Notes under the pieces: generated by a model
What the model saw: only the letters and a program-made list of their open reading frames with translations
Databases searched by the model: none
What the model was told of the DNA's origin: nothing
Made by a program: the position numbers and the translations under genes
Shown here: positions 26,947 through 41,700 of the stretch, in pieces
Layout: each line of letters starts with the position of its first letter
Position numbering within the stretch: the first letter of the stretch is position 1
Assembly (NCBI RefSeq): GCF_016786325.1
Contig: NZ_JADWYU010000252.1
Coordinates: 6,897-52,182, forward strand
Source of the DNA: Frankia nepalensis
GTDB lineage: Bacteria; Actinomycetota; Actinomycetes; Frankiales; Frankiaceae
Length of the DNA: 45,286 bases
Direction of reading: 5' to 3'

Positions 26947-26967
26947 CGGGCCGCGCTCGCCGCCCGG

Positions 26968-27021
26968 CGCCGCCCACGAGACCGGCGGCGCCCACGAGAC
27001 CGGCGGCGCCTACGAGACCAG
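26968..27021. repeat. 18-bp triplication at the end of the MDR gene
   Basis: The sequence cgcccacgagaccggcgg and variants occur three times in tandem between the SIP stop and the convergent MDR gene stop. The third, altered unit covers the last codons and TAG of the MDR gene, so repeat expansion has copied its coding end. Confidence 0.6.
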
Positions 27022-28104
27022 CAGCACGGTCTTGCCCGGGCGACGGGGCAGGCGTCCGCTCTCGAAGGCCGCCCGGCCCTCGGCGAGCGGGAACGCGCGG
27101 GCCACCACGGGGCGCAGCCCGCCCTCGTCGACGAGCCGCGCCAGGTAGGCGAGCTGGTCGCGGTCGGGGCGGGCGACGAAGAAGATGGCGACGATGCCGT
27201 ACCGGTCGGTGACCTCGGCCGGCGGCTGGGCGGACAGCGTCACCAGCCGGCCGCCGGGGCGGACGAGCGGGTAGGCCCGCTCGAGGGCCGCGCCGCCGAC
27301 CGTGTCGAGCACGACGTCGAACGCGGCGCCGGAGCGCTCCAGGTCGGCGGTGGTGTGGTCGAAGAAGTCCTCGGCGCCCAGGGAGCGCACGAGCGCGGCG
27401 TGCCCCGCCGCGTCCGTCGCGGTCACGCGCGCCCCGAGGCAGGCGGCGATCTGCACGCCGTACACGCCGACGCCGCCCGCGCCGCCGAGCACGAGCACCC
27501 GCTCCCCCGGCGCGAGCACCGCGTGCTCGACGAGCGCCTGGAACGCGGTCAGCGCGGCGAGCGGCAGGGCGGCGGCCCGCGCGTCGTCGACGGTGCGCGG
27601 CCTGGGCGCGAGGTCGCCCGCCCAGACGGTCGCGTACTCGGCGGCGGCGCCGTCCCGGTCGAAGTCGATCAGCCCGTAGACCTGGTCACCGGCCGCGAGG
27701 CCGCGCACCCCCGGGCCCAGCTCGGCGACGACACCGGACACCTCGCGCGCGGGGATGACCGGGGTGCGGTCGGAGCCGTCGAGCCGCGTCCAGGACAGGT
27801 CCCAGCCCAGCTCGGCGAACGTGATCGCGGCGGCGCGCACCTCGACGAGCACCTCCCCCGCCGCCGGGACGGGCCGCGGCGCCCGCTCGTAGACCAGCTT
27901 CTCCGGCCCGCCGCGGCTGTGCGCGCGCAGGGCCATCATCGTCCCGGTATCCCGGGCCAACGGGGCGGCCGACGCCGACGGGAGTGCCGCCCGGGCGACC
28001 TTGGCCGCCGGCGCCCTGGCCGCCTTCGCCGGCGGCGCCGGCCGCGCGGGTGCCGCCGGGGTCGCCGCGGCCGGTTCCGTCGCCCTCGTCGGCGTCGTGT
28101 CCAT
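27010..28104 (-). CDS. Zinc-independent MDR oxidoreductase (NADPH:quinone reductase-like)
   Basis: Medium-chain dehydrogenase/reductase of the quinone oxidoreductase type. GroES-like domain with GEVLVEVRAAAITFAELGWD and PAREVSGVVAELGPGV; Rossmann domain with GERVLVLGGAGGVGVYGVQIA; the end is RLPRRPGKTVLLVS. Structural and catalytic zinc ligands are not seen. The 364-residue product includes about 55 N-terminal residues rich in Ala, Pro and Lys/Arg (repeats like PAKAARAPAAKVARA) not usual for the family. ATG at 28104 has AGGA just upstream; ATG codons at 27939/27936 would remove the tail. It is convergent with the siderophore-interacting gene. Substrate unknown. Confidence 0.85.
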   Translation of the reverse strand: MDTTPTRATEPAAATPAAPARPAPPAKAARAPAAKVARAALPSASAAPLARDTGTMMALRAHSRGGPEKLVYERAPRPVPAAGEVLVEVRAAAITFAELGWDLSWTRLDGSDRTPVIPAREVSGVVAELGPGVRGLAAGDQVYGLIDFDRDGAAAEYATVWAGDLAPRPRTVDDARAAALPLAALTAFQALVEHAVLAPGERVLVLGGAGGVGVYGVQIAACLGARVTATDAAGHAALVRSLGAEDFFDHTTADLERSGAAFDVVLDTVGGAALERAYPLVRPGGRLVTLSAQPPAEVTDRYGIVAIFFVARPDRDQLAYLARLVDEGGLRPVVARAFPLAEGRAAFESGRLPRRPGKTVLLVS

Positions 28105-28465
28105 CGGTCCTGCCGCCCTTCTCCCGCCCAGGCGACCCGCCCGCCACCCGGCGGCCCATCGGCCGGCGCCACCGCGTCGAACCGCTCTCGCTCATCCCCA
28201 GACCTGACATAACTCACCTATCAGCCTGGGCGGAACAAACGGTTGGACCTACCGTCCTCGGACGTGAAGACCGCGCCAAAACTCGTGGATGCCTCCATGA
28301 GCGCGCCGGTCCAGGAGCCCGCCGGGCTCGTGGCGAGCCCGGGCGCGCCGAGGGCCGGCCCGGCCGGACGAGCCAGACGGGCCAGACGAGCCGGGTGGGC
28401 CAGACGAGCCGGGTGGGCCGGGGGCCGGGGGCCGGACGAGCCAGACGGGCCGGGCGGACGCCGGC
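28105..28465. other. Intergenic region with GC-rich minisatellite
   Basis: No supported gene. About 28360-28460 is a run of short imperfect direct repeats built on gacgagc, cagacgggc and cgagccgggtgggc, two units of the last being adjacent. Frames through it give collagen-like Gly-Pro-Ser repeats that I take as repeat artefacts. 28200-28270 is less GC-rich and probably holds the promoter of the MDR gene. Confidence 0.55.
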
Positions 28466-30046
28466 TCAGCGGAGCAGGCGGCGCAGGATCTTGCCGCTGG
28501 GAGATCTGGGGATCTCGTCGGTGAACTCGACGGCGCGGATCTTCTTGTAGGGCGCGACCCGCTCACGGACCCAGGCCGCCACGGCATCGGCCGTGGGCGC
28601 CGCGGCGGCGTCCTCGGGGACGACGAAGGCCTTGGGCGCCTCGCCGCCCTCGGGGTCGGGAACGCCGACGACGGCGGCGTCCCGGACCTGGGGGTGGGTG
28701 AGCAGCAGCGCCTCCAGCTCCGCGGGTGCCACCTGGTAGCCCTTGTACTTGATCATCTCCTTGAGCCGGTCGACGACCCAGAAGCAGCCGGACTCGTCGA
28801 CACGGACGAGGTCGCCGGTGCGCAGCCAGCCGTCGTCGAGCAGGACCGCGGCGGTCGCCGCCGGGTCGCCGAGATAGCCGGCCATGATCTGCGGCCCGCG
28901 CACCCACAGCTCGCCTCGTTCGCCCGCCGGCACGTCCTGGAGGGTCTCCGGGTCGACGACCCGGGCCTGCGTGTTCGCCAGGAGGCGGCCGACGGAGCCG
29001 GCCGGGGTCGTCGCGAACTCGGCGTCCGGCGTCTGGTGGGTGCCAGGACCGGCCTCGGTCAGGCCGAAGCCCTGCCGGATCGAGCACCCGAGCCGGGCCT
29101 CGGCGCGGCGGACCACGTCGAGGTCGAGCGGGGCGGCGCCGCAGATCCCGACGCGCAGCGCGGAGAGGTCGTGGCGCTCGACCGCGCCGGGCGGGGCGGT
29201 GGCGATCGCGAGCACCATCGGCGGGGCGAAGAAGGCGCGGGTGATCCTGTGGTCGGCCGCCATCCGCAGGAAGCCGTCGAAGGTGTACGGGGCGAGCGTG
29301 ACGATCGTGGCCCCCGCGCGCAGCCCGGCGTTGAGCACCAGCGTGAACGCGTAGCAGTGCGTGAACGGCAGCGTGGCCGGCAGCACGTCGTCCTCGCCGA
29401 GCGGCCAGCCGACGGCGTTCTGCTCGACGTTCGCCACCTGGTTTCGGTGGGTGAGCATGACGCCCTTGGCGGCACCGGTCGTCCCGCTGGAGTACGGCAG
29501 CATCGACACCGCCGCGCGGGGGTCGACGTCCGGCCGCGGCACGCCCGCGCCCGCGGCGGCGGCGCCGCGGGCCACCAGCTCGGCGAAGGGACGAAATCCC
29601 GGCGCCTCGCCGAGCACGAACCGCAGGGACGGTTCCAGGCCCGCCGCGTCCGCCGCCTCGGCGACCTTCGCCGCGGCGGCCTCGGAGGCGACGACCACCG
29701 TCGCGCGGGAGGCGACCAGCTGCCCGGTCAGCTCCCCCGCCGTCAGCAGCGCGCCCGCCGGGGTGACCGCGGCGCCGGCGGCGATCGCGCCGTGCAGCGC
29801 GAGCGCGAACCGCGGCTGGTTGTGGCTCACCAGCGCGACCACCCCGCCGGGCCCCACCCCCAGCTCGGTGAGGGCCGCCGCGACGGCCGCGACGCCGTCG
29901 GCGAGCTCGGCATAGGTGAGCACCTCGCCCGAGGTCGCGTCGACGAGGGCCGGCTTCGCGCCCCGCGCGCGGGCGCCCGCGAACAGGTGCTCGGTGAGCG
30001 TGACGTCCGGGATCTCGACGTCCGCCGCCGGGCTACGGTAGATCAT
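28466..30046 (-). CDS. AMP-forming acyl-CoA ligase (4-coumarate-CoA ligase-like)
   Basis: ANL-superfamily enzyme that adenylates a carboxylic acid and transfers it to CoA; 526 residues, full length. Core motifs: YSSGTTGAAKGVMLTH (P-loop/A3), YAFTLVLNAG, FGLTEAGPGTH (A5), GELWVRGPQIMAGYL, GWLRTGDLV (A7/A8), DRLKEMIKYKGYQVAPAELE and the catalytic lysine in PRSPSGKILRRLL (A10). The sequence is closest by eye to 4-coumarate or medium-chain acyl-CoA ligases; the acid is not predictable. ATG at 30046 (MIYRSPAADVEIPD). Together with the acyl-CoA dehydrogenase at 22731 and a PaaX-like regulator, it suggests acyl-CoA catabolism in the region, although the genes are not one operon. Confidence 0.92.
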   Translation of the reverse strand: MIYRSPAADVEIPDVTLTEHLFAGARARGAKPALVDATSGEVLTYAELADGVAAVAAALTELGVGPGGVVALVSHNQPRFALALHGAIAAGAAVTPAGALLTAGELTGQLVASRATVVVASEAAAAKVAEAADAAGLEPSLRFVLGEAPGFRPFAELVARGAAAAGAGVPRPDVDPRAAVSMLPYSSGTTGAAKGVMLTHRNQVANVEQNAVGWPLGEDDVLPATLPFTHCYAFTLVLNAGLRAGATIVTLAPYTFDGFLRMAADHRITRAFFAPPMVLAIATAPPGAVERHDLSALRVGICGAAPLDLDVVRRAEARLGCSIRQGFGLTEAGPGTHQTPDAEFATTPAGSVGRLLANTQARVVDPETLQDVPAGERGELWVRGPQIMAGYLGDPAATAAVLLDDGWLRTGDLVRVDESGCFWVVDRLKEMIKYKGYQVAPAELEALLLTHPQVRDAAVVGVPDPEGGEAPKAFVVPEDAAAAPTADAVAAWVRERVAPYKKIRAVEFTDEIPRSPSGKILRRLLR

Positions 30047-30350
30047 GACGCCGTCTCCAGCGACTCCAGGTCACGGCCGGACGGCGGCGCGGCCCGGGAC
30101 GGCGTCACGTCGGGCACGAGCGGCTCCTCCCCGGGTGTGCGCTGCGCCACAGCGACGTTGACGCTACGAAGGGCCACAACGCCCGTCAATGGCGCATTTC
30201 ACGGGACGGGCGGCGTGACCCGTGCGCCGCCGGCGAGCCGTGTGGCCGCGTGTCACGCCGAAACGCCCTGTGGGCCGGGAGGATCGCTCCCGGGCCCGCA
30301 GGGCGCCCATGTCACGGAAAAGCGGGTCAGGAGGTCATCAGCTGGCGGGG
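30047..30350. other. Intergenic gap between two minus-strand genes
   Basis: No gene seen. The part next to 30047 should carry the acyl-CoA ligase promoter; the part next to 30350 carries the narK terminator hairpin. Confidence 0.5.
30261..30305 (-). terminator. Rho-independent-type terminator after narK
   Basis: On the minus strand an 18-bp GC stem (arms about 30305-30287 and 30281-30264, one G-T pair and one bulge) with a 5-base loop is followed by TTT. It begins about 45 bp after the narK stop. The short T-tract is usual for high-GC actinobacteria. Confidence 0.65.
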
Positions 30351-31727
30351 TCAGACGCCGGGGAGGCGGCGGGGGGACGGACGCAGGTAGACGGCCCAGG
30401 TGACGACGAAGCAGAGCGCGTAGAAGGCCAGGAAGGCGACATAAGCGCCGTTGCCGGTGTGGTAGGTCAGGAACGACTGACGGAAGGCCAGGTTGACCAG
30501 CACACCACCGAAGGCGCCGATGGCGCCGGCCAAGCCGATGAGCGCGCCCGACAGGCGGCGCGCCTCCCGGTCCGCGGCCGCGGTGTCCGAGTCCGCGGCC
30601 AGGACGGCCTTCGCCCGGAAGATCGCCGGGATCATCTTGTAGGTGGAGCCGTTGCCGATGCCGGCGAAGGTGAACAGCAGCAGGAACCCGGTGATGAACA
30701 GGGGCAGCGACTTCTCCAGCGACGCCACCAGCACCAGCGTCGCGCTGAGGGCCATCGCCACGAAGTTGACGAAGGTGATCTTCGCGCCGCCGTATCGGTC
30801 CGCGAGCATGCCACCGACCGGACGGATCAGCGACCCGATCAGCGGGCCGAGGAACGTCAGGTAGGCGGCCTTGATCGGGGTGGAGAAGTCGGCCTTGAAC
30901 TGCACCTGCAGCACCTGGCCGAAGGCGAAGCCGAAGCCGATGAACGAGCCGAAGGTGCCGATGTAGAGCAGCGACATCACCCACGTGTGGCCGTCGCGGG
31001 CAACGTCGCGCATCGCGTGGGTGTCGTTGCGGGCCGAGGTGATGTTGTCCATGAACAGCGCCGCGCCGAGCGCCGAGACCACGATCAGCGGCAGGTAGAT
31101 CGCCAGGATCAGTCGCGGGTGCTCCTTGCCGGCGGTCGCGAGCACCAGCAGCCCGATGAGCTGCACCGCGGCGACGCCGAGGTTGCCGCCGCCGGCGTTC
31201 AGGCCGAGGGCGCGGCCCTTGAGCCGGTCCGGGTAGAACGTGTTGATGTTGGCCATGGACGAGGCGAAGTTGCCACCGCCGACGCCAGCCAGCGTGGCCG
31301 TGACCAGCAGGGTCGTGTAGCTCACGCCCGGTTCGAGGATGACGGCGGTGACCACCAGCGGCACCAGCAGCATCACCGCGGAGAAGATCGTCCAGTTCCG
31401 GCCGCCGAACTTCGCGACGGCGAACGTGTACGGCAGCCGCAGCACCGCGCCGACCAGGGTCGGGACGGTGGTGAGCAGGAACTTCCCGGCCGCGTCGATC
31501 CCGTACTGGGGGCCGAGGAACAGCACCATGACCGACCACAGGCTCCAGATCGAGAAGCCGATGTGCTCGGAGAAAATCGAGAAAACCAGGTTGCGGCGGG
31601 CGACGCGCGCCCCGCCGTTCTCCCAAAACACCGGGTCCTCGGGTCGCCAGTCGTCGATCCACCGGCCGCCGCTGGCCGGCGCGCCGACCCGGCCGACCGG
31701 CCGTACGCCTTCCGCCGTCGTACTCAT
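30351..31727 (-). CDS. narK: Nitrate/nitrite transporter, NarK family
   Basis: Major-facilitator protein of 458 residues with about 12 membrane helices. It has both nitrate/nitrite-porter signatures: GVGGGNFASSMANINTFYP in the first half and AGIGNGSTYKMIPAIF in the second. The first half also keeps LGPQYGIDAAGKFLLTTVPTLVGAVLR-like sequence with the conserved Arg (LRLPY). It imports nitrate or exchanges nitrate and nitrite at the cytoplasmic membrane. A 40-residue hydrophilic N-terminus precedes helix 1 (WRPEDPVFWENGG is conserved in actinobacterial NarK). A strong terminator follows. The neighbours nrtA-nrtB-nrtD-like genes and nnaR across the IS remnants support a role in nitrate assimilation. 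Confidence 0.95.
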   Translation of the reverse strand: MSTTAEGVRPVGRVGAPASGGRWIDDWRPEDPVFWENGGARVARRNLVFSIFSEHIGFSIWSLWSVMVLFLGPQYGIDAAGKFLLTTVPTLVGAVLRLPYTFAVAKFGGRNWTIFSAVMLLVPLVVTAVILEPGVSYTTLLVTATLAGVGGGNFASSMANINTFYPDRLKGRALGLNAGGGNLGVAAVQLIGLLVLATAGKEHPRLILAIYLPLIVVSALGAALFMDNITSARNDTHAMRDVARDGHTWVMSLLYIGTFGSFIGFGFAFGQVLQVQFKADFSTPIKAAYLTFLGPLIGSLIRPVGGMLADRYGGAKITFVNFVAMALSATLVLVASLEKSLPLFITGFLLLFTFAGIGNGSTYKMIPAIFRAKAVLAADSDTAAADREARRLSGALIGLAGAIGAFGGVLVNLAFRQSFLTYHTGNGAYVAFLAFYALCFVVTWAVYLRPSPRRLPGV

Positions 31728-31988
31728 GTCATTCCCTCCACTGCGCCTGGGGCCGCGAGGGTACGCGGGAAGAGATTTTCCACGCCGCCGCCAGCCCGAC
31801 GTCGGTACCGGGTCTCGACACGAACATAGGAAGCCGCCGTTACGGCAGCAGCCTCCGGCGGTGACGATTCTTGATCCTTTCGCTCACGACGTCCGCGCGG
31901 CCGACGTGAGGAACCAGCCGATGCGAAATCAGGCATGGGTGAGCAAATACGTGAGCAGAGTCACTCTTTGTTTGTGTATCCTGCTCGA
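31728..31988. promoter_or_regulatory. narK upstream region
   Basis: About 260 bp between narK and the IS remnant. It is AT-richer near 31930-31985, with gtgagca repeated at 12-bp spacing (31937 and 31949 region) followed by agtcactc. The narK promoter is expected here; I could not place a convincing GlnR box. Confidence 0.35.
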
Positions 31989-31989
31989 C

Positions 31990-32150
31990 CTGGGAGCGTG
32001 AGGTCCGAATGCGCCGCACAGGACGATCTTGATGCTTGCAACGGGGAGTCCGGCCACTTCGGCGATCTCGGGGACGGTGTGTCCTCCGGCTGCCCGTAGT
32101 TCTCGGATGGCGTCGTCTCGCTCGCGGCGCGCGGCGCCCGGGTCAAGAGG
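31990..32150 (-). pseudogene. Helix-turn-helix fragment fused to the transposase remnant
   Basis: Frame reads RERDDAIRELRAAGGHTVPE and then IAEVAGLPVASIKIVL, a helix-turn-helix of the kind found in transposases or small regulators. It is in a different frame from the IS6-like fragment directly upstream and has no plausible start of its own, so it is a remnant. The parent gene is not recognised. Confidence 0.5.
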
Positions 32151-32500
32151 CGGCGGGTCGCGGCCAGGTCCCGATGCTCGCGGGCAAGCACGTCGATGAC
32201 CTGGCGGAACTGGTCGACCGCTCCGTAGCGACAGGCCCACCGGCCAGCGACCTTGAGGTACGTCTCATCGGCGAACCCTCGATCCAGGCAGGTGGCGACA
32301 CGGCCGGGCGGCGTTCGTCAGGAGCGGGATGAACCGCCGCACCCATCGGAACAGCGTTACTACATGGCCGACGATGACGCCGCGTTCGGCGAGCAGTTCC
32401 TCACCGCCCGGTAGGACAGTGGACAGCGCAAGTACCAGCGCACCGCCAGCACGATCACTTCGGCGGGAACGGAACTCCCGCGGGCTCGGAGGCCGCAGCC
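32150..32500 (-). pseudogene. IS6-family (IS26-like) transposase remnant
   Basis: Recognisable transposase pieces lie in three successive frames: VIVLAVRWYLRCPLSYRAV (from about 32458), then EELLAERGVIVGHVVTLFRW with RFIPLLTNAARPCRH, then FADETYLKVAGRW (first catalytic Asp) with QVIDVLAREHRDLAATRRLL ending near 32160. At least two frameshifts separate them. The second and third DDE residues and the C-terminus are missing. No intact terminal inverted repeats were found. It is dead on its own but marks an insertion between narK and the nitrate ABC genes. Confidence 0.75.
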
Positions 32501-32789
32501 GCGGGACGGACACGACGACACCCCACTCGATCATGCCTGACCGGGCCGGCACCGTACCCAGCCAACGCAACTGCGCCCACCGCCATCCCCCGCCGCTCGA
32601 CCGGGAGCCTCGACCACACCCGCTGGGGCTTCCCGCGTTCGTCGAACACACGGCACCACGTCCGGCGCGCCTGTCACCGACCGCAACCAGTCAACCAAAG
32701 CCGCCAGCCACGGCAACGCATACCCGCTGATGATCGGTCCGCCCGCCGCAGAGCGGCCACTTTCAGATGCACTGCGCGTGGTCGACTTC

Positions 32790-33120
32790 GACGGTCAGCG
32801 CTGACCGGCGACACGGGCCAGCGCCCGCCGGGGACGGGGCCGGGAGCGAGGGTGCGGTAGAGCGAGGGTGCGGTAGAGCGAGGGTGCGGTAGAAGGCGTA
32901 CTCGCCGGTGGCCTGGTTGCGGCGGACGAGCAGCCAGCGCCGGCCGGGCAGGTCGCCGTCGATGATGTCGATCAGGGCACAGTCGTGGTAGCGGTGGCCC
33001 GCGGAGCCGACCCGGCGGGCAGGGACTGCCAGCTGCTGGCGGGCAGGCGGACAGCGAGTTCGACGGCCCGGCGGGCCCCGACGCCGGTGACAATCCGGTG
33101 GTCCTTGGCGTCATGCCCCC
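32790..33120 (-). pseudogene. IS701/IS4-type transposase remnant
   Basis: Fragments typical of an IS701-like DDE transposase are seen: KDHRIVTGVGARRAVELAVR followed by LPASSWQ in one frame, then, after a shift, GHRYHDCALIDIIDGDLPGR and RRWLLVRRNQATGEYAFYRT, then RALARVAGQR beyond a triplicated 16-bp repeat. Frames change at least twice and both ends are missing. It cannot make a working enzyme. It lies just upstream of the promoter of the nitrate ABC genes. Confidence 0.7.
32845..32892. repeat. Three perfect 16-bp tandem repeats
   Basis: agcgagggtgcggtag occurs at 32845-32860, 32861-32876 and 32877-32892. It lies inside the IS701-like remnant. Two extra copies add 32 bp, which shifts the reading frame, so slipped-strand expansion probably helped inactivate the gene. 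Confidence 0.9.
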
Positions 33121-33127
33121 GTCCCGG

Positions 33128-33281
33128 CTGGCCAACGGCGCCCGCGTTAACGGAGTATGACGACGTTTCCAATATATGTCGGGAGGGTCACGGTGCACCA
33201 GGCGAGGCAAGTTAGCGCGACGTGACTGAAGTTTGACGGGCATGAAACTCCTCGATCCTCCCGTCGCGGGACGCTTCCAGG
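33128..33281 (+). promoter_or_regulatory. Promoter region of the nitrate ABC operon
   Basis: A lower-GC stretch with gttaac and an AT-rich ccaatatatg patch near 33168-33177 that could serve as promoter elements. At 33225-33237 an AC-n9-AC pattern (gtgactgaagtttgac) resembles one half of a GlnR-type box, but such a short pattern arises easily by chance. Confidence 0.35.
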
Positions 33282-34502
33282 GTGGACAGACGAACCTTCT
33301 TCAAATCGGCCGGCGTAGCCGCCCTCGGTGCCACCGCCCTGGCGGCCTGCGGCTCGGACAGCAGTTCATCCTCGACGTCGGGAACGAGCGGCAACCGGAA
33401 GGTTCGCCTCGGGTTTATCGCGCTGACGGACTGTGCGCCCATCCTGATGGCGAGCGAGCTCGGCTACTTCGCTGAGCGAGGCCTCGACGTGTCGGTCGTT
33501 AAGCAGGCCTCGTGGCCGGCTACCCGGGACGCGCTGCTCAACAACCAGATCGACGGCGCGCACTGCCTCTACAGCATGCCGCTCTCGGTCGCCACGAAAA
33601 TCGGCGGCAGCGGGTCGACCGCGCTGAAAGTCGCGATGATATTGAACAACAACGGCCAGGCGATCACGCTGGCCAAGGAGTTCTCCAGTGTCGGCTATGC
33701 CGACCTGGACAAGGCGAAGGCCGCGCTCGAGTCCAAGCAGCCGACGTTGGCGATGACCTTCCCCGGCGGTACGCATGACCTCTGGATACGGTACTGGCTG
33801 CGCGCCGCCAAGGTGGACATGTCGGCGGTCAAGGTAATCCCGATCCCGCCGCCCCAGATGGTTGCGAACATGAAGGTCGGCACGATGACGGGCTACTGTG
33901 TGGGTGAGCCCTGGAACGCCGTCGCCGTGAGCCAGAACGTCGGTTTCACCCACCTCACCACACAGGATCTCTGGACCGGGCACCCGGAGAAGGCGCTGGT
34001 GGTGGGAGAGAAGTTCGCCACCGAGCAGGAGGACGCCCTGCGCGACACCATGGGCGCGATCCTGAAGGCCGCCCGGTGGCTTGACGATCCGGCCAACCGA
34101 GCGAAGGCCGTGGACGTGCTCGCCCAACAGAAGTACCTGAACACACCCGCCGCCGGGATCAGAGGTCGGCTGCTGGGCGAGTACGACTTCGGCGCTGGCA
34201 TCCCGGGACGTACCTATCCCGCCGCGGAGAACATGCGCTTCTTCGGTGATGGCTTCGTCAGCGCACCGCGTCGGGGGCACGCGCTGTGGGCGCTGGCCCA
34301 GTACCAGCGCCTCGGCCTCGTCGACAGCGTCGCCGACCCGGAGGGCCTCGTCAACAAGATCGTGCTCAGGGGCCTCTATGAAGAGGTCGCCGCCGCGGAG
34401 AAGATCGACGTCCCCGATGACGACCTTGCCTCGTTCACGGTGAAGCTCGACGGTGCCAGCTTCGACCCGAAGGAGTTCGCTAAGGAGGTGGCCAGGGTAT
34501 GA
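33282..34502 (+). CDS. nrtA: Nitrate-type ABC transporter substrate-binding lipoprotein (NrtA/CmpA-like)
   Basis: A 406-residue extracytoplasmic binding protein. The N-terminus has a twin-arginine-like DRRTFFKSAG and a lipobox LAAC with lipidated C23, then a Ser/Thr-rich linker. NrtA/CmpA-type ligand motifs follow: LGFIALTDCAPILMASELGY, LLNNQIDGAHCLYSMPLSVA, FPGGTHDLWIRYWL and IPPPQMVANMKVG with YCVGEPWNAVAV. These match nitrate/bicarbonate binders better than SsuA or TauA. GTG at 33282 has only a weak ribosome site. The stop overlaps the permease start (ATGA). GC content and codon use (ATA, TTG, AAC) are visibly less extreme than in flanking genes, hinting at transfer. Confidence 0.88.
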   Translation: MDRRTFFKSAGVAALGATALAACGSDSSSSSTSGTSGNRKVRLGFIALTDCAPILMASELGYFAERGLDVSVVKQASWPATRDALLNNQIDGAHCLYSMPLSVATKIGGSGSTALKVAMILNNNGQAITLAKEFSSVGYADLDKAKAALESKQPTLAMTFPGGTHDLWIRYWLRAAKVDMSAVKVIPIPPPQMVANMKVGTMTGYCVGEPWNAVAVSQNVGFTHLTTQDLWTGHPEKALVVGEKFATEQEDALRDTMGAILKAARWLDDPANRAKAVDVLAQQKYLNTPAAGIRGRLLGEYDFGAGIPGRTYPAAENMRFFGDGFVSAPRRGHALWALAQYQRLGLVDSVADPEGLVNKIVLRGLYEEVAAAEKIDVPDDDLASFTVKLDGASFDPKEFAKEVARV

Positions 34503-35458
34503 GCGTCACCGGCCACGTGACGAAGGTGGAGAATACCGCCGTCGCCATGCCGCCCCAGCCAGCGCCCGAGTCGCCGGTCGCACCCGAATCGGAAGCCGCC
34601 GTGGAATCGGCCGCCGCCCCGGAGCCGGGGGCGGCGGCCGCGCCGAGTCCCGACGCGGCGAGGCCGACGTGGCTGGCTCCGGTCCAGCGGACCGCCGCCG
34701 CCGTCGGTTGGGGCCTCCTTGGCGGCTTGCTGTTCGTCGGGCTGTGGGCTGTCGTGGCGTACCGCTCAGGTGATCTGCCGTCTCCGTCAAGCGCGTTTTC
34801 TACCCTTATCGACCTGCTGGCCGATCCGTTCCGCGACGGTGGCGAGACCGACAAGGGCATCGGCCTGCAGCTCGCGATCTCGCTGGGGCGGGTGTTCAGC
34901 GGGTTTGCCCTGGCCGCTTTGGTCGGGGTGCCGCTGGGACTGCTCATCGGCGGCAGCCGGCGGGCCTGGCAGGCGGTGAACCCCGTCGTCCAAATTCTGC
35001 GTCCGGTCTCCCCGCTCGCCTGGTTCCCGCTCGGCCTCGTAGTGTTTAAGGACGCCCCCAACGCGGCTGTCTTTGTCATCTTCGTCACCGCGCTCTGGCC
35101 GACCGTACTGAACACGGCAGCCGGGGCGGCCTCGGTGCCGGAGGACCAGCACAACGTGGCCCGAGTATTCCGTTTCTCCCGGTTCTCCTACGTCCGGAAC
35201 ATCGTGATCCCGCACGCGCTGCCATCGGTCGTCACCGGCCTGCGGCTGTCCATGGGTATCGCCTGGATGGTTATCGTCGCGGTTGAGATGCTCTCTGGCG
35301 GCACCGGGATCGGATTCTTTGTATGGGATTCGTACAATGCGTCCAACCTGTCCGCGGTCATCAGTGCGATCTTGCTGATCGGTTGTATCGGTGTCGTCCT
35401 GGACTGCCTTTTCCTGTGGCTTTCCCGGCTGGTTGGCGCGAAGGAGTCGGGACAGTGA
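34499..35458 (+). CDS. nrtB: Nitrate-type ABC transporter permease (NrtB-like)
   Basis: A 319-residue inner-membrane permease of the BPD_transp_1 type. A 60-residue Ala/Pro/Glu-rich cytoplasmic N-terminus is followed by about six helices (first near 72-90). The EAA loop that contacts the ATPase reads AASVPEDQHNVARVFRFSR with NIVIPHALPSVVTGLRL. The last helices contain GGTGIGFFVWDSYNASNLSA. It partners the NrtA-like lipoprotein upstream and the ATPase downstream, with 4-bp overlaps on both sides, so the three subunits are coupled. The homologous SsuC/TauC permeases are excluded mainly by the NrtA-type binding protein. Confidence 0.86.
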   Translation: MSVTGHVTKVENTAVAMPPQPAPESPVAPESEAAVESAAAPEPGAAAAPSPDAARPTWLAPVQRTAAAVGWGLLGGLLFVGLWAVVAYRSGDLPSPSSAFSTLIDLLADPFRDGGETDKGIGLQLAISLGRVFSGFALAALVGVPLGLLIGGSRRAWQAVNPVVQILRPVSPLAWFPLGLVVFKDAPNAAVFVIFVTALWPTVLNTAAGAASVPEDQHNVARVFRFSRFSYVRNIVIPHALPSVVTGLRLSMGIAWMVIVAVEMLSGGTGIGFFVWDSYNASNLSAVISAILLIGCIGVVLDCLFLWLSRLVGAKESGQ

Positions 35459-36249
35459 GCCAGCTGGAGATCGACGGACTGCACATGTCCTTCCCTGGTC
35501 GCCGTGGCATCGCCCCGCAGCACGTCCTGCGAGGCGTCGATCTGCAGGTCGGTCAGGGTGAGTTCGTCTCGCTCATCGGACATTCGGGTTGTGGCAAGTC
35601 AACGCTGCTGAACGTCGTGGCGGGTCTGCTTCGGCCGAACTCCGGGCGGGTGCTCGTGGGGGGTCAGCCGGTCACCGCGCCGGGGCCCGACCGGGCGATG
35701 GTGTTCCAGAACTACTCCCTGCTGCCTCGGCTGAGCCTGCTGGCAAACGTGCGGGAGGCGGCTCGTTCGGCGAACCCGCAGGCACCCCGGGAGCGGATCG
35801 ACGAGACGGTCGAGCGCTACCTCTCGGCGGTTGGGTTGTGGGAGCACCGCAACAAGCGGCCCCGTCAGGTGTCCGGTGGCATGCAGCAACGGACCGCGGT
35901 GGCTCGCGCGTTCGCGGTCGGACCCCGGATCCTTCTGTTGGACGAGCCGTTCGGCGCCCTTGACGCGCTTACCCGGGCGCGGCTGCAGGAGCAGTTGCTC
36001 GAGCTGTGGGCGAACGAGTCCACGACTGAGACCGTTCTGATGGTCACCCACGGCATCGACGAGGCGATTCTGCTCGCGGACCGGATCGTGGTGATGGGCA
36101 ATCCGCCTCAGCCGTCCATCGTCGACATCATCCCGGTCGAACTTCCCCGCCCGCGGGACCGGGTAACGGTCATCGACGACCCTGCCTACCGGCAGGTCCA
36201 ACAGCGCCTCCTCGACCTGCTCCATGCTGACCAGCAAGCGGTGGCCTAG
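35455..36249 (+). CDS. nrtD: Nitrate-type ABC transporter ATP-binding protein (NrtD-like)
   Basis: A 264-residue ATPase. Walker A GHSGCGKST at 42-50, Q-loop MVFQNYSLLP, signature VSGGMQQRTAVARA, Walker B ILLLDEPFGALDA and H-loop VTHGIDEA are intact. GTG at 35455 overlaps the permease stop (GTGA) and has AAGGAG 8 bases upstream; the frame is open further up but inside nrtB. It lacks the extra NrtA-like domain of cyanobacterial NrtC, so it is the NrtD type and probably works as a homodimer. It is convergent with nnaR. Confidence 0.9.
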   Translation: MSQLEIDGLHMSFPGRRGIAPQHVLRGVDLQVGQGEFVSLIGHSGCGKSTLLNVVAGLLRPNSGRVLVGGQPVTAPGPDRAMVFQNYSLLPRLSLLANVREAARSANPQAPRERIDETVERYLSAVGLWEHRNKRPRQVSGGMQQRTAVARAFAVGPRILLLDEPFGALDALTRARLQEQLLELWANESTTETVLMVTHGIDEAILLADRIVVMGNPPQPSIVDIIPVELPRPRDRVTVIDDPAYRQVQQRLLDLLHADQQAVA

Positions 36250-36261
36250 GGCCGAATGCTT

Positions 36262-36351
36262 CCCGCGGATCGCTACGACGATGATCTGTTCGTCAAGCGC
36301 AAACCCCACCCGGGCACCCCATCGCCCGGTGCGCGGGTAGCGATCCGCGGG
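36262..36351. terminator. 90-bp inverted-repeat element between convergent nrtD and nnaR
   Basis: Perfect 15-bp arms cccgcggatcgctac (36262-36276) and gtagcgatccgcggg (36337-36351) enclose 60 bp that contains a second, smaller stem (about 36308-36332, cccgggc/gcccgg). It lies between two convergent genes and could be a bidirectional terminator. It could instead be a small MITE-like element. Confidence 0.5.
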
Positions 36352-36408
36352 GACCTGAAGCGGGCCGCCACCGTAGCCAACGGGCGAGACGTCCGGCGGC
36401 GGGCAGCG

Positions 36409-37539
36409 TCAGCTGGCGGCCAGGCGGTAGCCGCGCTTGAGGACGGTCTCGATCGCGCGGCCGGCGGGGCCGAGCGCGGTGCGCAGGCGGGCGACCGTCA
36501 TCTCCATCGCGTGCTCGTCGGCGCCCGCGCCCGCGCCGGTGCGGGTCAGCAGCTCGGCGCGGGAGAGCACCCGGCCGGGCCGCTCGGCGAGCGCGACCAG
36601 CACCGCCGCCGCCTTCGGCGCGAGCATCACCGTGCGCCCGCCGTCCACGACGACCGCGCAGCCCTGCACCCGCAGCCGGTGCCCGCCGGCGTCGACCTCG
36701 CGGGCGCGCCGCGCGGGCAGCTCGTCGCAGATCGTGCGGACCAGCGCGCCCAGCCGGAACCGCTCCGGGTTCACGATCGGGATGTCGAGCCGCCGCAGCG
36801 GCGCGGCGCACACCGGGCCGACGCAGGCGGCCAGCACGGGGCCGCGCAGCGCCTCGACCAGCGCCTCGCGCTGGCCCAGGTCGGCCGCGGTGGACAGCAG
36901 GCTCAGCACCGCCGGGGCGCTGGTGAACGCGAGCGCGTCGACGCCGCCGGCAACCGTCTGCTCGACGAGCCGGCGCACCGGCCGGACGTCCTCCGGCTGC
37001 TCCCAGCGGTAGACCGGGACCTCCACGACGTCGGCGCCGGCCGCGCGCAGCCCGTCGACCATCCCGGGCAGCGGCTCGCCGTGCAGCTGCACCGCGATCC
37101 GCTTCCCGCGCAGGTCCTGGCCGAGCAGGTGGTCGAGAAGCTCCGCGCCGGACTCGGAGACCGGCGACCAGCACTCGGACAGGCCTGCGGCCCGCACCGC
37201 GCCGGTGACCTTCGGGCCGCGGGTGAACAGCCGGGCGGCGGCCAGCGCGTCGGCCAGGTCGTCGCCCAGCCCCCAGCCGTGCGCGGCCTCCATCCAGCCG
37301 CGAAAGCCGATCCCGGTGGTGGCGACGACGGCGTCCAGCGGCGCCGCGAGGCAGGCCTTCGTCGCGTCGAGCAGCCGGCCGTCGTCCTCCAGCGGCACGA
37401 TCCGCAGCGCCGGAGCCTGCACGACCCGGGCGCCGCGCCGCTCCAGCAGGCTCGCCAGCTCGTCGCGCCGGCGCGCGGCGGTCAGACCGATGGTGAACCC
37501 GAGCAGCGGGGGCACCGGGCCGACGTCCGCTTCCGGCAT
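36409..37539 (-). CDS. nnaR: HemD-like / OmpR-type winged-helix regulator of nitrate-nitrite assimilation (NnaR homologue)
   Basis: A 376-residue protein with a uroporphyrinogen-III-synthase-like domain (about 12-265; motifs VVATTGIGFRGWM, AVQLHGEPLPGMVDGLRAAGA, VDALAFTSAPAVLSLL, ACVGPVCAAPL) fused to an OmpR-type winged helix (about 290-376; LAPKAAAVLVALAERPGRVLSRAELL, MTVARLRTALG, TVLKRGYRL). This architecture is that of NnaR, which works with GlnR on nitrate/nitrite genes in Streptomyces and mycobacteria. Position beside narK and an NrtABD-type importer supports the same role here. ATG at 37539 has GGGAGG about 4-8 bases upstream; the open extension to 37695 is shadow. Whether the HemD domain is catalytic or only a sensor cannot be told. 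Confidence 0.88.
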   Translation of the reverse strand: MPEADVGPVPPLLGFTIGLTAARRRDELASLLERRGARVVQAPALRIVPLEDDGRLLDATKACLAAPLDAVVATTGIGFRGWMEAAHGWGLGDDLADALAAARLFTRGPKVTGAVRAAGLSECWSPVSESGAELLDHLLGQDLRGKRIAVQLHGEPLPGMVDGLRAAGADVVEVPVYRWEQPEDVRPVRRLVEQTVAGGVDALAFTSAPAVLSLLSTAADLGQREALVEALRGPVLAACVGPVCAAPLRRLDIPIVNPERFRLGALVRTICDELPARRAREVDAGGHRLRVQGCAVVVDGGRTVMLAPKAAAVLVALAERPGRVLSRAELLTRTGAGAGADEHAMEMTVARLRTALGPAGRAIETVLKRGYRLAAS

Positions 37540-38051
37540 GCCGCCTCCCTCGCTGGCTAGGTCGCCGATGGCTCGGCCGGTCGAGGATCCGACCGGGGTC
37601 TGTCGTCGTGATCTGTCAGCGCGCCCCGCGGGGCCTGCCCGCGTGCTCTGGTGGACGGTCGATTCCGGGCTGGTGCCGCCTGGAGACGACGTCATGGAGC
37701 CGATGTCTTCGTGGAGCTGGTGCGGTGGAGCTGATGTCGTCGTGATACTGGCCGGCCAGGCGCGCCGCCTGCCCGACCTTACTCGGCCAGCATGGCCGAA
37801 CGCCGTGTCCTGTCAATTTCGTCACGACGTCGCGTGCGTAACAACACTCACCGCCGAAAACGATCTCAGAAGCGCCTCACATCACGTTGGGATGCCGTGT
37901 GAACTGGCCGACCCGGGGCCGTTCCAGGAGGCAACAATGCCGAAATACAAGCAGGCCGGAGGACGGCGCGATCATTGTTCGGCGCGATATCGCCACGGCC
38001 GCGGAAATGGGCCGGGCGCCCGGCCGCCGGTGCCTGGCCGCCGGCGCGGGG
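37540..38051. other. Gap upstream of nnaR
   Basis: About 510 bp. Contains an imperfect direct repeat (ggagccgatgtcttcgtg at 37696 and ggagctgatgtcgtcgtg at 37727, 31-bp spacing), an AT-richer strip at 37800-37900 that looks promoter-like, and one small candidate ORF on the plus strand at 37937. Confidence 0.5.
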
Positions 38052-38095
38052 CTACTGGTGGCCGGGCGGCTCGGGGTCGTGCAGCCGGTCGGTGA
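37937..38095 (+). CDS. Candidate small ORF with a strong ribosome site
   Basis: An ideal AGGAGG (37928-37933 region) sits a few bases before ATG at 37937. The 52-codon frame starts MPKYKQAGGRRDH and then becomes Arg/Gly/Pro-rich. MPKYKQ is a common start of GntR-type regulators, so this may be the 5' stump of a deleted regulator rather than a real small protein. An AT-richer, promoter-like strip lies upstream. The 3' part runs antisense to the end of the XRE-TPR gene. Confidence 0.3.
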   Translation: MPKYKQAGGRRDHCSARYRHGRGNGPGARPPVPGRRRGATGGRAARGRAAGR

Positions 38096-39764
38096 GCTCG
38101 GTGACGGCCGGGAGCGTCGGCCACTGCTGGGCGACCCGGTTGTGCAGCCTGCGCACCTGCCCCATCACCCGGCGTGAGCCGGTCGCCTGGGCGATCGCGG
38201 CCGCGGTCAACGTGTCCGCGCAGGCCGCCTCCGGCTCGGCGGTGTGGATGTGGGCGACCGCCAGGTGGTAGACGTACTCGGCCGCCCACTCGGCGCGGCG
38301 CATCGGTTCGGGCAGGCCGGCGAGCCCCGCCGAGAGGTCCTCCGCCGCCCTGCGAGCCCGGCGCGCGTTCTGGCGAGCCAGGTAGCGGTGGGCGAGCCCC
38401 TCCTGGAGCTGGGCGAACGCGGGTGAGAAGTAGTAGCTCCACGGCGGCGGCCCGTCGGGATGGTCACGGGCCAGCTGCCACAGCTCGCGCGCCCGGGCGA
38501 GCCCGCGGTCGGTCGCCTCGGCGTCGCCGGTCATCGCGTGGCCGCGGGCCTCCTGACCGGCGTCGTAGGCCCGCTGCCCCGGGTAGACGCCCGCGACCCG
38601 CTGCGCCGCCTGGGACAGTCCGATCAGCGGCCCGACGGCGCCCGACTCCCAGGCGAGGTGGCCCTTGTAGCTCAGGATGTTCGCCGTGAGGCTCGGGTTG
38701 CCGGACTCGGCGGCCCACTCGGCCCCCCGGTCGAGCCACACCCGGGCCTGGGCGGTCGAGCCGGTGTTGGCGTACAGCCAGCCGGCGAACTGGGCCCACT
38801 GGGCCGCGACGTCGACCATCGCGCGCCGCGCCGCGCCGCGCGCCTCGAACACCAGCGGCATCAGCGCGGCCAACTGCGCGGTGACCGGGCCGAGCAGCGG
38901 CGCCGAGCCGACCGTGTCCTCGACGTCCCGCTGCGCGGCGAGGATCACCGCCAGCGCCTCGGCGAGCGGGACGTCCGCCGTCCGCGCGGACCGGCTGGCC
39001 GCGGCCCGCAGCCGGTCGGAGGCCAGTGCCCGCGCCGCCGCCTCCTGGGCGCCCATCGGCCGGCCCGCGTCGGCATCGACGTCCGCGGCCGCCTCCGCCG
39101 CCGCCAGCGCGCCGTACGGGTCGGACCAGTCGTCCGCGCCAGGCCGGTCGCGCTCCTGGTCCGGGGCGTGCCCGTGCGGCGCCGGGCGGAGCACCGCCGG
39201 CCTCGCCATGCGGGCCGTCACCGTCAGGTCGGCGCCGCCGCGCGCCGTCTGGTCCGAGACCGCCTGGGCCGAGATGACCTGGGTGGAGACGGCCTGGGTG
39301 GAGACGGCCCGCGCGAACGCGGCCCGCCCGCGCGCGGCCGCCTCTAGCCGCGCGAGCCCGGCCGGGTCCGTCGCGGGGTCGATCGTGGCCAGCTCGGCCA
39401 GGCCCGCCAGCTCCGCGAGCTCGGCCGGGTCCGAGAGCCCTCCCGGCCGGCGCGGCCGCTGGCCGGGGGCGCCGGAGCGGCCGGCCCGCGTGGCGGCCAC
39501 CTCCGCGGGCAGCGGAGCGCGAAAGCCCAGCTCGACGTCGGAGACGCCGAACAGTTCGCGGTAGGCGCGCTGGTAACGCGGTCCGGGATACGACTCCCCG
39601 CGTTCATGCCGGCCAACTGTCTGAAACGTCGCGTTTGGCGGAGTGAAACCATCCAGGGCCAGATTGCGCACCGCGTCGGCCACCTGGTCCAGGGTCAGGC
39701 CGTGCCGTTCCCGGTGCCGACGGAGCCGATCCGGATCCCAGCCTTGTCGCACGCTCGATGGCAT
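38052..39764 (-). CDS. XRE-family regulator with large TPR-like C-terminal region
   Basis: A 570-residue protein. An XRE helix-turn-helix lies at about 10-68 (DPDRLRRHRERHGLTLDQVA, TFQTVGRHERGESYPG). The middle (about 75-230) is Ala/Arg-rich with a short repeat of AVSTQ type. The C-terminal 300 residues are helical and TPR-like (VWLDRGAEWAAESGNPSLTA, ANILSYKGHLAWESGA, RYLARQNARRARRAAEDL). This form is common in actinobacterial developmental or secondary-metabolism regulators. I chose ATG at 39764 (MPSSVRQGWDP) because GGAAGGAG lies upstream and the HTH begins nearby; starts up to 39836 are possible. Ligand and targets unknown. Confidence 0.85.
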   Translation of the reverse strand: MPSSVRQGWDPDRLRRHRERHGLTLDQVADAVRNLALDGFTPPNATFQTVGRHERGESYPGPRYQRAYRELFGVSDVELGFRAPLPAEVAATRAGRSGAPGQRPRRPGGLSDPAELAELAGLAELATIDPATDPAGLARLEAAARGRAAFARAVSTQAVSTQVISAQAVSDQTARGGADLTVTARMARPAVLRPAPHGHAPDQERDRPGADDWSDPYGALAAAEAAADVDADAGRPMGAQEAAARALASDRLRAAASRSARTADVPLAEALAVILAAQRDVEDTVGSAPLLGPVTAQLAALMPLVFEARGAARRAMVDVAAQWAQFAGWLYANTGSTAQARVWLDRGAEWAAESGNPSLTANILSYKGHLAWESGAVGPLIGLSQAAQRVAGVYPGQRAYDAGQEARGHAMTGDAEATDRGLARARELWQLARDHPDGPPPWSYYFSPAFAQLQEGLAHRYLARQNARRARRAAEDLSAGLAGLPEPMRRAEWAAEYVYHLAVAHIHTAEPEAACADTLTAAAIAQATGSRRVMGQVRRLHNRVAQQWPTLPAVTELTDRLHDPEPPGHQ

Positions 39765-39984
39765 CGGCTCCAGCACTCCTTCCATCCCCGACCAGAGCAT
39801 AACGGCACCCATGGACGGGACGATTGGCACGGACACCTATGGGCCAGAAGTCGGCTAGCAAAACGACTAATTCGAGGTCCGCCTTGGCGCTATCCCCTAG
39901 TTAGGTCGACTGCTTCCGCCGCCCCAGGTGATTAGCTCAACGTGCTGGAGATACTGCCCTGCGGAGTCGAAGCTAGGTGCGCCG

Positions 39985-40020
39985 GCCCCGCTCGGTCCCG
40001 GCCCCGGGACCGAGCGGGGC
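39985..40020. repeat. Near-perfect 36-bp palindrome (17-bp arms, 2-base spacer)
   Basis: Arms gccccgctcggtcccgg (39985-40001) and its exact complement at 40004-40020, separated by cc. No T-run follows on either strand. It could form a cruciform or very stable RNA hairpin. Confidence 0.85.
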
Positions 40021-40168
40021 ACGGTGGCGGCGCGCCGACGAGGTCGTCGGGCGCCGCGGGGCACGGACCGTGCTTCGCCAGGTCCTCGCGCCGCATCCAC
40101 CCTGATCCCGGCGGCCTTCCCCCAAGGAGGCCGGGGTGCCGGTCGCCCCTCCCGGCCGGCCCGCGGGT

Positions 40169-40195
40169 CCGGCGGGGCCCACGTGGCCCCGCCGG
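40169..40195. repeat. Second hairpin, 11-bp arms
   Basis: ccggcggggcc (40169-40179) pairs perfectly with ggccccgccgg (40185-40195) around cacgt. It lies in the possible leader of the unknown gene at 40401. Confidence 0.8.
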
Positions 40196-40400
40196 CTCCG
40201 GGCCGGTCGGCGACCGCGCCGACGGGTGACGACACGCGCGCCAGCGCGCGAGCGGGCGACCAACGCGGAGAACAGCCCGCGCCGCTCGCGACGCTCAACC
40301 GTGAGGGGGCACCTCCTGTGGACGTTCCGGCGCGTTGCGCGGACCGGGATGGCCGTGGCAATCCGGCCAGAATCGGATCGCCGGCTTCTTGGCGCGGCCC

Positions 40401-41219
40401 ATGGGCCGCGCCCACAAACATGTTCGACTGCTTGTCGAAACTCCGGCCGACCGGATTTCGAAACACGGCCCGGGTGGCTCGGCCGAGACCGGGGCCTTTC
40501 TGGATCGAGCCCTCGAGACCCGCTTCATCGCGTCTGGTGGCGACGCGCCTCGCCTCGTCCCGGCTGAGCCGGCCATGGTCGTGACCGACGGCCTGCCCGG
40601 CCTGCATGCCCAGCTGAGGACACGGAGCGGCTGGGCGGACTTCGCTCTGCTGCCCGAGGGCTTCGACGTCCCGGACGAGGACGGCCTGATCGTGCTGCGG
40701 GCGCGCAGCCGGCCGGCGCGGCTCGGCGGCGCCCAGCTGCTCTGGGGCGACGGCGAGTTCATCGGGGTGTACGAGCGGGCCCTGGTACGGGTGGCCCTCC
40801 GCTTCGCGGAGGCGAACGACGTCGCGGTGGTGCTGCACTGGCGCGACGTACCAGCCCGCGCCACGGCGCTCGCGGTGGCGGTCGCCGGCTGGCTGCGCGA
40901 CACCCGGGCCGGGACCGGCCAGCGCCGCGCCGTCGTGACCAGCGCCGTCCGCCCACGGCCAGAGGGCGGCTTCGTCGCGTTCCCGCACGCGGTCCGCCTC
41001 GTCGGCGAGCCCTCGGCGAACGTGTGGGAGCTGCGCCACGGCCACGCGCCGGACCCGGATCCGGACCGCGGTGCCCCGCCCCGGCCCAGCCCGGCCCCGG
41101 CCACCGGCCCGCGACCGGTCCACTCCGCCGACTCGGCCCGGGCCTCCGCCTGGCTCGCCCGTTCCCATCCGAGCCCGGGCACCGCCCGCGTCGTCCGCCC
41201 CGGCCGGCCGCCGCGGTGA
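40401..41219 (+). CDS. Unrecognised protein
   Basis: I do not recognise this 272-residue product. The ordered-looking core runs from about MVVTDGLPGLHAQLRTRSGW (ATG at 40575) to VRLVGEPSANVWELRHG, with segments WADFALLPEGFDVPDEDGLI, RALVRVALRFAEANDVAVVL and ATALAVAVAGWLRDTRAG. The last 60 residues are Pro/Ser/Arg-rich and probably disordered. No signal peptide, membrane helix or known catalytic motif is evident. Start is uncertain: ATG at 40401, ATG at 40575, or TTG at 40335; none has a clear ribosome site. It is convergent with the Rdx-type gene 16 bp away. Confidence 0.6.
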   Translation: MGRAHKHVRLLVETPADRISKHGPGGSAETGAFLDRALETRFIASGGDAPRLVPAEPAMVVTDGLPGLHAQLRTRSGWADFALLPEGFDVPDEDGLIVLRARSRPARLGGAQLLWGDGEFIGVYERALVRVALRFAEANDVAVVLHWRDVPARATALAVAVAGWLRDTRAGTGQRRAVVTSAVRPRPEGGFVAFPHAVRLVGEPSANVWELRHGHAPDPDPDRGAPPRPSPAPATGPRPVHSADSARASAWLARSHPSPGTARVVRPGRPPR

Positions 41220-41235
41220 CCCAGACGGATCCCCG

Positions 41236-41598
41236 TCAGGTCACGGCGGGTGGCTGGCCGTCCGTGTGGCCCAGGCCGCGGCCGGGGGCGACGAGGTCAC
41301 GGACGGCGCGCTTCACGGCGGTGGGCTCGGGGAACCCCTGGGCGCGCCGGTCCCAGACGACGGCGTCGTCGACCCGCACGGTGAAGACCCCGCCGGTGCC
41401 GGGGACGAGGGCCACGGCGCCGACGTCGGACTCGAAGGTGACGAGCAGCTCCTGGGCCAGCCAGGCCGCGCGCGGCAGCCAGCGGCAGCGGGTGCAGTAC
41501 TCGATCTCCAGGCGTGGCTTGTCCCCGGCGGCGGCCGGGGCGGCGCCCGCGCCGGGCTCCGGCCGGGCCGTCGGGGTGTCGTCACTCGCGGCGGGCAC
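41236..41598 (-). CDS. Rdx/SelT-SelW-SelH family CxxC protein
   Basis: A 120-residue thioredoxin-like fold protein. The redox motif is CTRC in IEYCTRCRWLPRAAWLAQELL (about 32-52), followed by the family sequence VALVPGTGGVFTVRVDD and a C-terminal PEPTAVKRAVRDLVAPGRGLGH. Both positions of the motif are Cys, so this is the non-selenocysteine form common in bacteria. The first 28 residues are Ala/Pro-rich. It probably acts as a cytoplasmic redox protein; partner unknown. It is divergent from the MarR-GNAT gene with 141 bp between starts and might share its operators. Confidence 0.85.
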   Translation of the reverse strand: MPAASDDTPTARPEPGAGAAPAAAGDKPRLEIEYCTRCRWLPRAAWLAQELLVTFESDVGAVALVPGTGGVFTVRVDDAVVWDRRAQGFPEPTAVKRAVRDLVAPGRGLGHTDGQPPAVT

Positions 41599-41700
41599 GC
41601 TCGCACGCTACCCGGCGACAGCCCGCCGGTTTGGCCGACGCGACAAAGGCGTCCCCCCGGTGGGCGCGATCTCACCGGAGCCGGGACGCCGGCCAGTTGT

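Follow-up and report, generated by a model that had tools for sequence, protein, structure and literature searches.

An nrtABD operon with a predicted GlnR box, probably inserted between the resident nnaR and narK genes of Frankia nepalensis

A nitrate uptake locus of Frankia nepalensis, at positions 30351-37539 of the 45,286-nucleotide stretch of DNA analysed here (the window; assembly GCF_016786325.1, contig NZ_JADWYU010000252.1, positions 6,897 to 52,182), contains the genes of two transporters, NarK of the major facilitator superfamily (MFS) and the ATP-binding cassette (ABC) importer NrtABD, and the gene of the regulator NnaR. In the account that we consider likely, nrtABD of Actinomycetota origin entered this genome and landed between the resident nnaR and narK genes, bringing a GlnR-type box of its own. 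Judged from the DNA sequence, the operon most likely arrived with a GlnR-type promoter; narK would answer to NnaR, and nrtABD directly to GlnR. The component parts are of known kinds; the interest lies in the insertion and the portable promoter. An earlier reading of the window (the original prediction) had proposed that an ABC operon was acquired beside a resident narK/nnaR pair, and this is well supported by the empty site in three congeners, the lack of an NrtA match (E≤1e-60) in the other 116 relatives and the foreign codon use of the ABC genes. The assembly (10.7 Mb, 398 contigs) was searched as the own genome, G000, in which the window lies on contig C359.

All five genes, narK, nrtA, nrtB, nrtD and nnaR, are uninterrupted open frames. 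The nnaR (37539 to 36409) and narK (31727 to 30351) genes are on the minus strand, with nrtABD (33282-36249) between them on the plus strand. Identities refer to three genomes of the same genus, G004, G005 and G006.

30351..31727, minus strand: narK, MFS nitrate/nitrite transporter, resident (TIGR00886 and structure matches; 89% identity in G004, G005 and G006)
31955..36395 (about 4.4 kb), no strand: inserted segment, missing from G004, G005 and G006
33282..34502, plus strand: nrtA, nitrate-binding lipoprotein, 406 amino acids (NMT1_2 and NrtA 2G29 matches; RR signal and lipobox judged by eye)
34499..35458, plus strand: nrtB, permease, 319 amino acids (TIGR01183, 243.8 bits; 8w9m_B, E 5e-62)
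35455..36249, plus strand: nrtD, ATPase, 264 amino acids (TIGR01184; Walker A, signature and Walker B motifs all present)
36409..37539, minus strand: nnaR, HemD-like domain and winged helix, resident (NF005568, HEM4 and Trans_reg_C; 90-92% identity in G004, G005 and G006)

In G004, G005 and G006, three of the seven other same-genus genomes searched, nnaR runs directly into narK and there are no ABC genes. At this empty site the sequence corresponding to window positions 31910-31944 joins that of 36395-36408 across 48-247 bp of variable intergenic DNA. The plain nnaR-narK junction in three congeners identifies the segment from about 31955 to 36395 as an insertion, whose ends can be placed only to within some 10-15 bp, given that the intergenic DNA varies among the relatives too. 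To the right, synteny is kept from 38062 to 42631, in blocks about 79-85% identical. The direct adjacency of narK and nnaR that the original prediction proposed to look for in relatives is present in these three genomes, and the finding that it named as contrary, the same order with the ABC genes in most relatives, was not made in the relatives.

The composition of the insert is foreign. Its guanine plus cytosine (GC) content is 0.676, compared with 0.737 for the whole window. GC at third codon positions (GC3) is 0.87 in nrtA, 0.83 in nrtB and 0.84 in nrtD; among the comparison genes it is 0.95 in narK, 0.98 in nnaR and 0.88-0.98 in six others. Karlin codon distances were calculated relative to five chosen resident genes, a gene of the reference set being excluded from its own comparison. 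The ABC genes lie at 0.305-0.347 and narK at 0.174; seven other genes span 0.133-0.236. The lower GC and different codon use previously ascribed to the ABC genes are thus confirmed by per-gene values, GC3 and Karlin distance setting them, but not narK, apart. The lower overall GC of narK is no sign of transfer, because it stems from codon positions 1 and 2 and is the same in G006.

Within this lineage nnaR and narK form a resident pair, but the pairing is not universal. NnaR was found in 68 of 117 relatives, own genome counted. Among the other same-genus genomes with both genes, the tandem nnaR-narK arrangement of the window occurs in three of six; in G001, G002 and G003 the two genes are on opposite strands, 2-6 kb apart, and in G007 neither nnaR nor narK was found. 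The distance between the two genes in the 62 other relatives that have both is at most 500 bp in 17 and 0.5-12 kb in 24; in the rest they are farther apart on the same contig (7) or on different contigs (14). At E≤1e-60 NrtA was detected in the own genome only among the 117 relatives and, own genome counted, in 3 of 393 genomes of the class; at E≤1e-50 it was detected in 3 of 396 genomes of the phylum, again with the own genome counted. In each genome these searches scored the 4 to 15 best candidates, and a few matches could be missed. The insertion is known from one genome.

Phylogenetic analysis of NrtA, as suggested in the original prediction, placed the window protein in an all-Actinomycetota group. 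The maximum likelihood tree comprised 82 rows (81 loci and the window; L063 was omitted as too short), and the group is a clade of eight rows with support 100/100. Inside the clade the order is not resolved, and there are several long branches, of which the program warns. The closest NrtA identities are 62-64% (G561 and G713, 63%). As for a plasmid donor, 350 plasmid records matched NrtA (E≤1e-40), all with less than 60% identity, which leaves no close donor among them; the best identity among the matches listed was 50.7% (Deinococcus gobiensis).

Remains of insertion sequences (IS) were recognised in the insert, and an inverted repeat near its other end:

32114..32577, minus strand: decayed IS6-family transposase pieces in differing frames (DDE_Tnp_IS240, 1e-11; NF033587, 5.7e-10 and 0.0044)
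32916..33063, minus strand: decayed IS701-type piece (70% DNA match to contig C15 of the own genome, whose gene matches NF033540 at 1e-91)
36262..36351, no strand: perfect 15-bp inverted repeat with a 60-nt spacer, between the convergent nrtD and nnaR genes

The stretch 32152-32577 is 74% identical to contig C381 of the own genome, and contig C60 contains a stretch with 79% identity to a third piece, at 32002-32136. The IS701-type piece itself gave no hidden Markov model match. Adjoining it, at 32844-32893, an 18-nt unit is present in three exact copies with 16 bp spacing. No second copy of the 15-bp inverted repeat was found in the genome. The gap between nrtD and nnaR is only about 150 bp, and a 166-bp stretch there matches only itself in the genome, so no wreckage was seen on that side. 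The description of the ABC genes as bordered by transposase wreckage therefore holds on the narK side, where the IS6- and IS701-type pieces lie, and not between nrtD and nnaR. A composite IS6 transposon was rejected on account of IS pieces on the left side only and no flanking direct repeat; a repeated element at the right end of the insert was rejected on account of the self-match of the 166-bp stretch.

The original assignment of NarK, an NrtABD-type importer and NnaR to this locus agrees with the family and structure matches of the five open frames. NarK scored 292.4 bits against TIGR00886 (model cut-off 311.7), matched the solved NarK structures 4u4t (E 6.6e-85) and 4jr9 (E 1.2e-84), and contains GGGNFASS, which we take to be the NarK signature motif. 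NrtA matched NMT1_2 (E 5.9e-83) and NrtA 2G29 (E 1.4e-68). NrtB passes the cut-off of the curated nitrate permease model (ntrB equivalog, 209.05 bits), and NrtD scored 289.3 bits against TIGR01184 (ntrCD, cut-off 291.8), the top score among 186 families. The ABC genes overlap by 4 bp at both junctions, the nrtA stop with the nrtB start (ATGA) and the nrtB stop with the nrtD start (GTGA). NnaR far exceeds the cut-off of NF005568 (521.9 vs 273 bits) and has HEM4 and Trans_reg_C domains; the genome holds another HEM4 match, stronger than that of NnaR. The start of nnaR at 37539, as originally assigned, matches the N-terminus in G006.

The nitrate contacts of NrtA 2G29 are W102, Q155, H196, G240 and K269 (PMC13204499; this and the other PMC articles are cited from excerpts). 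In the alignment of NrtA with 2G29, an offset of chain position +29 sets all five residues on the right letters. The window NrtA has all five contacts, as W78, Q126, H165, G208 and K237, and these residues are invariant in 10 of 10 aligned NrtA sequences. Where NrtA has Q, H and K, the bicarbonate-binding CmpA 2i48 carries N, Q and E (compared via Lyngbya NrtA). The neighbourhood of NrtA was surveyed at 80 loci, the best 80 of 558, counting matches within the retrieved flanks. A NasC-like match lies near NrtA in 55 of the 80 loci, and a NasC-like or strong NirB-like match in 59; for loci with at least 15 kb of flank the numbers are 51 and 53 of 63. Nitrate reductase-like neighbours are usual for the NrtA relatives of other phyla. 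The substrate predicted from these features is very probably nitrate. An importer specific for another substrate such as bicarbonate or taurine, which would have contradicted the original prediction, did not come out; the pocket letters are of the nitrate type and not of the bicarbonate type.

Transport of another anion (bicarbonate, taurine, sulfonate or cyanate) appears extremely improbable. It could be argued from the sole NCBIfam match of NrtA, SsuA_fam, which is far under the cut-off (51.4 vs 163.5), from the related protein NrtT, which binds sulfonates (PMC5623697), and from the lack of nitrate-reductase neighbours beside the Actinomycetota orthologues. Against this stand the five of five nitrate contacts, the missing CmpA-type letters at three positions, the NrtB score above the nitrate permease cut-off and the nitrate-reductase-like neighbours in other phyla; bicarbonate, taurine and sulfonate were set aside on the pocket letters and the permease model. 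As to the history of the operon, nrtABD could be ancestral to the genus or family and have been lost in the relatives, with the IS pieces arriving later. The clustering of the window NrtA with other Actinomycetota fits such a history insofar as the family existed somewhere in the phylum. We nevertheless hold it to be very unlikely in view of the short plain nnaR-narK junction in three congeners, the foreign codon use of the ABC genes and the lack of an NrtA match (E≤1e-60) in the other relatives, the seven same-genus genomes included.

The window was searched with the GlnR consensus (a-b-a-b, 18 letters scored) from PMC10704036, with the following results:

33211..33248, plus strand: predicted GlnR box (a-b-a-b), 14/18 letters, the highest score of the window; its start is 71 bp upstream of nrtA
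37805..37842, minus strand: weak GlnR-like box, 12/18, upstream of nnaR; this score is reached at 8 places of the window, and the box is also found in three relatives (12-13/18)

The nrtABD promoter thus carries a GlnR-consensus match of 14/18 at -71. Because this site was first spotted by eye, an orthologue test was run with 11 Actinomycetota operons, several of whose start codons were assigned by homology to the RR signal. The best box is at -71/-72 in 7 of the 11 orthologues (five with 12-14 letters, two with 10) and at other offsets in L063, L070, L062 and L066. Compared with random 200-bp stretches of the same loci, the boxes of the 11 orthologues gave a combined p of 2e-8, and the summed score of the first 9 was reached by 0 of 1000 shuffles. 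The control with non-actinomycete loci included 70 of 74, each with its own start (4 were omitted for too little upstream DNA); a box below 0.05 was found in 1 of the 70 and a best box at -71/-72 in none. Genome-wide there are three sites with at least 15 letters, compared with none in the reversed control. As a positive control, the best GlnR site of the genome (16 letters) lies about 112 bp before an ammonium transporter gene, a classic GlnR target. Regulation of amtB by GlnR is mentioned in PMC10704036.

The NnaR motif consists of CTCAC, 18 bases and GTGAG (PMC6277429). Its weak inner positions were ignored in the scan, leaving 10 scored letters.

31883..31910, no strand: exact NnaR box, CTCAC-N18-GTGAG, upstream of narK; same place and exact in three close relatives
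37876..37903, no strand: NnaR-like box with one mismatch, upstream of nnaR; 9/10 letters in three relatives too, 1.5 expected per window by chance

The window has one exact box, where 0.005 would be expected in a shuffled window. Another exact box precedes nasC on contig C354 (L166 4891-4918; gene from 4985 or later); nasC of G005 has no exact box upstream (6/10 letters). The 1 kb upstream of nrtA contains no NnaR box, even with up to two mismatches allowed. The insertion starts about 45 bp past the NnaR box of narK and leaves it in place, which may explain why the insertion was tolerated. Of the idea that two uptake systems are under one regulator, the part concerning narK (and nasC) is in keeping with the NnaR boxes; the part concerning nrtA is not, as there is no NnaR box before it and a GlnR box instead. 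The control common to both pumps is more likely GlnR, with NnaR as an additional, GlnR-dependent step for narK; the GlnR dependence of NnaR is described for other species in the excerpts of PMC10704036 and PMC6277429.

Direct control of both narK and nrtABD by NnaR, as originally proposed, seems quite unlikely to us. A pairing of nnaR with nrtA does occur at least twice, since in L067 (Acidimicrobiia) nnaR is divergent beside nrtA, and NnaR may bind poorer sites, NnaR-dependent genes with imperfect motifs having been reported in the excerpts of PMC6277429. In this genome, however, the motif is exact before narK and nasC, the 1 kb upstream of nrtA lacks even a two-mismatch box, and in the 320 bp before nrtA of L067, which span the shared intergenic region, the best NnaR box has 7/10 letters. 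The GlnR-like element could also be a mere conserved -35 promoter element (TTGAC) and no GlnR site. Three orthologues that retain only TTGAC-N6-GCAAT there would agree with that, but L067, L069 and L071 have the same offset and the GAAAC half-site without TTGAC, and the amtB control site indicates that the consensus is met in the own genome; we regard the -35 explanation as unlikely.

In the history that we favour, nrtABD would have arrived together with or next to IS6/IS701-type elements, since decayed, which may have had a role in the move, and the insertion would have spared the promoter region of narK including its NnaR box. Under nitrogen limitation, active GlnR would bind before nrtABD and switch it on directly. 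GlnR would also switch on nnaR, and NnaR together with GlnR would then bind at and turn on narK and the unlinked nasC-nirB. NrtA would bind nitrate outside the membrane, and NrtB and NrtD would import it with ATP, alongside NarK. In a more general form, to which we give even chances, nrtABD in Actinomycetota would be a rare travelling module that has a GlnR box at fixed distance and becomes part of the nitrogen regulon as soon as it enters a host with GlnR. In the present genome it would have been inserted in the nitrate locus with the resident NnaR-driven promoter unbroken, so that an MFS pump and an ABC pump in the one cell answer to two branches of the same nitrogen cascade.

Several observations weigh against this account. 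No target-site duplication (flanking direct repeat) and no second IS copy were recognised. The site at 33211-33248 was noticed by eye before scanning, and a site this good arose somewhere by chance in 11 of 200 simulated windows. A GlnR box of at least 12 letters is found in 7 of the 11 orthologues, while four (L062, L066, L172r and L173) have just 10-11, and it is three of these that retain only TTGAC-N6-GCAAT. Just one of the three genome-wide sites of at least 15 letters precedes a gene tied to nitrogen. That the genome uses the GlnR consensus is only probable, as judged from the sites. NasC/NirB matches near the ABC genes were obtained in none of the six named Actinomycetota loci within the retrieved DNA, nor, with the same limit, in L062, L063, G561 and G713. 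Nitrate assimilation itself is not certain because nasC reads in two frames.

Genes acquired horizontally usually need wiring into the control network of the host; this operon seems to carry along a box of a kind that the nitrogen regulator of the host reads. The empty site in close relatives makes the states before and after directly comparable. The locus offers a clean natural case for asking how a second, ATP-driven nitrate route is added beside NarK in an actinomycete, and whether travel of the operon with its box accounts for the conserved box position.

The operon resembles cyanobacterial NrtABCD (NrtA 2G29; NrtBCD 8w9m and 8wm7) in the same five nitrate contacts and in the homologous permease and ATPase. 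It differs in lacking NrtC with its fused NrtA-like domain, in the actinobacterial-type lipoprotein signal of NrtA (by eye) and in the expected GlnR-type control, the control of cyanobacterial NrtABCD being of the NtcA type. In the window nnaR and narK share a strand and nnaR comes first, whereas in the Streptomyces-type order, represented by G051, G071, G088 and G103 (presumably Streptomyces), narK is upstream of nnaR. The narK/nnaR pairs of Streptomyces coelicolor (SCO2959, SCO2958) and Mycobacterium smegmatis (msmeg_0433, msmeg_0432) belong to the same two families, with an NnaR box before narK (PMC6277429, PMC10704036); unlike these, the window has 4.4 kb of foreign DNA between the two genes. 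A GlnR-controlled nitrate-specific ABC transporter has been described in Streptomyces lincolnensis (Meng et al. 2017, cited in PMC10704036 and PMC7014725). By that description it is alike in being an ABC importer of nitrate that GlnR controls in an actinomycete, and the excerpts of the two citing articles are silent on an insertion between nnaR and narK. Our literature search found no paper on nnaR with nrtABC, which does not show that nothing is in print; searches on horizontal transfer of nrtABC/narK in actinobacteria and on nitrate and narK in Frankia gave none on topic by title among the matches listed.

The likely assimilatory nitrate reductase gene nasC (L166 4985-8051, contig C354 of the own genome) is the gene that reads in two frames in the assembly. 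In G006 nasC is also in two frames, at a different place, and G004 and G005 have it as one open frame; the two-frame state may reflect either decay or an error of sequencing. Beside nasC-nirB, G005 (C50:15891-17267) and G006 (C1:725364-726734) have a second narK with 77% identity. None was found at E≤1e-30 in the own genome or in G004, and the ABC importer may replace a second narK pump that was lost or never present.

Among the neighbouring genes, an NsdA-family regulator adjoins nnaR (window 38052-39836), a position kept in three close relatives. The other neighbours of narK, at 26946-30348, are a quinone-oxidoreductase-like gene (by eye) and an acyl-CoA ligase gene; no DNA matching this stretch is found next to narK in G004, G005 and G006, so the narK side is variable too. 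In the distant Actinomycetota genome of L067 (8686-11281; Acidimicrobiia metagenome-assembled genome nzgw84) nnaR is divergent beside nrtABD, an independent pairing. Downstream of nirB on contig C354 (L166 14184-17440) there is a separate ABC transporter, with an ATPase, a probable permease and a weakly SsuA-like binding protein.

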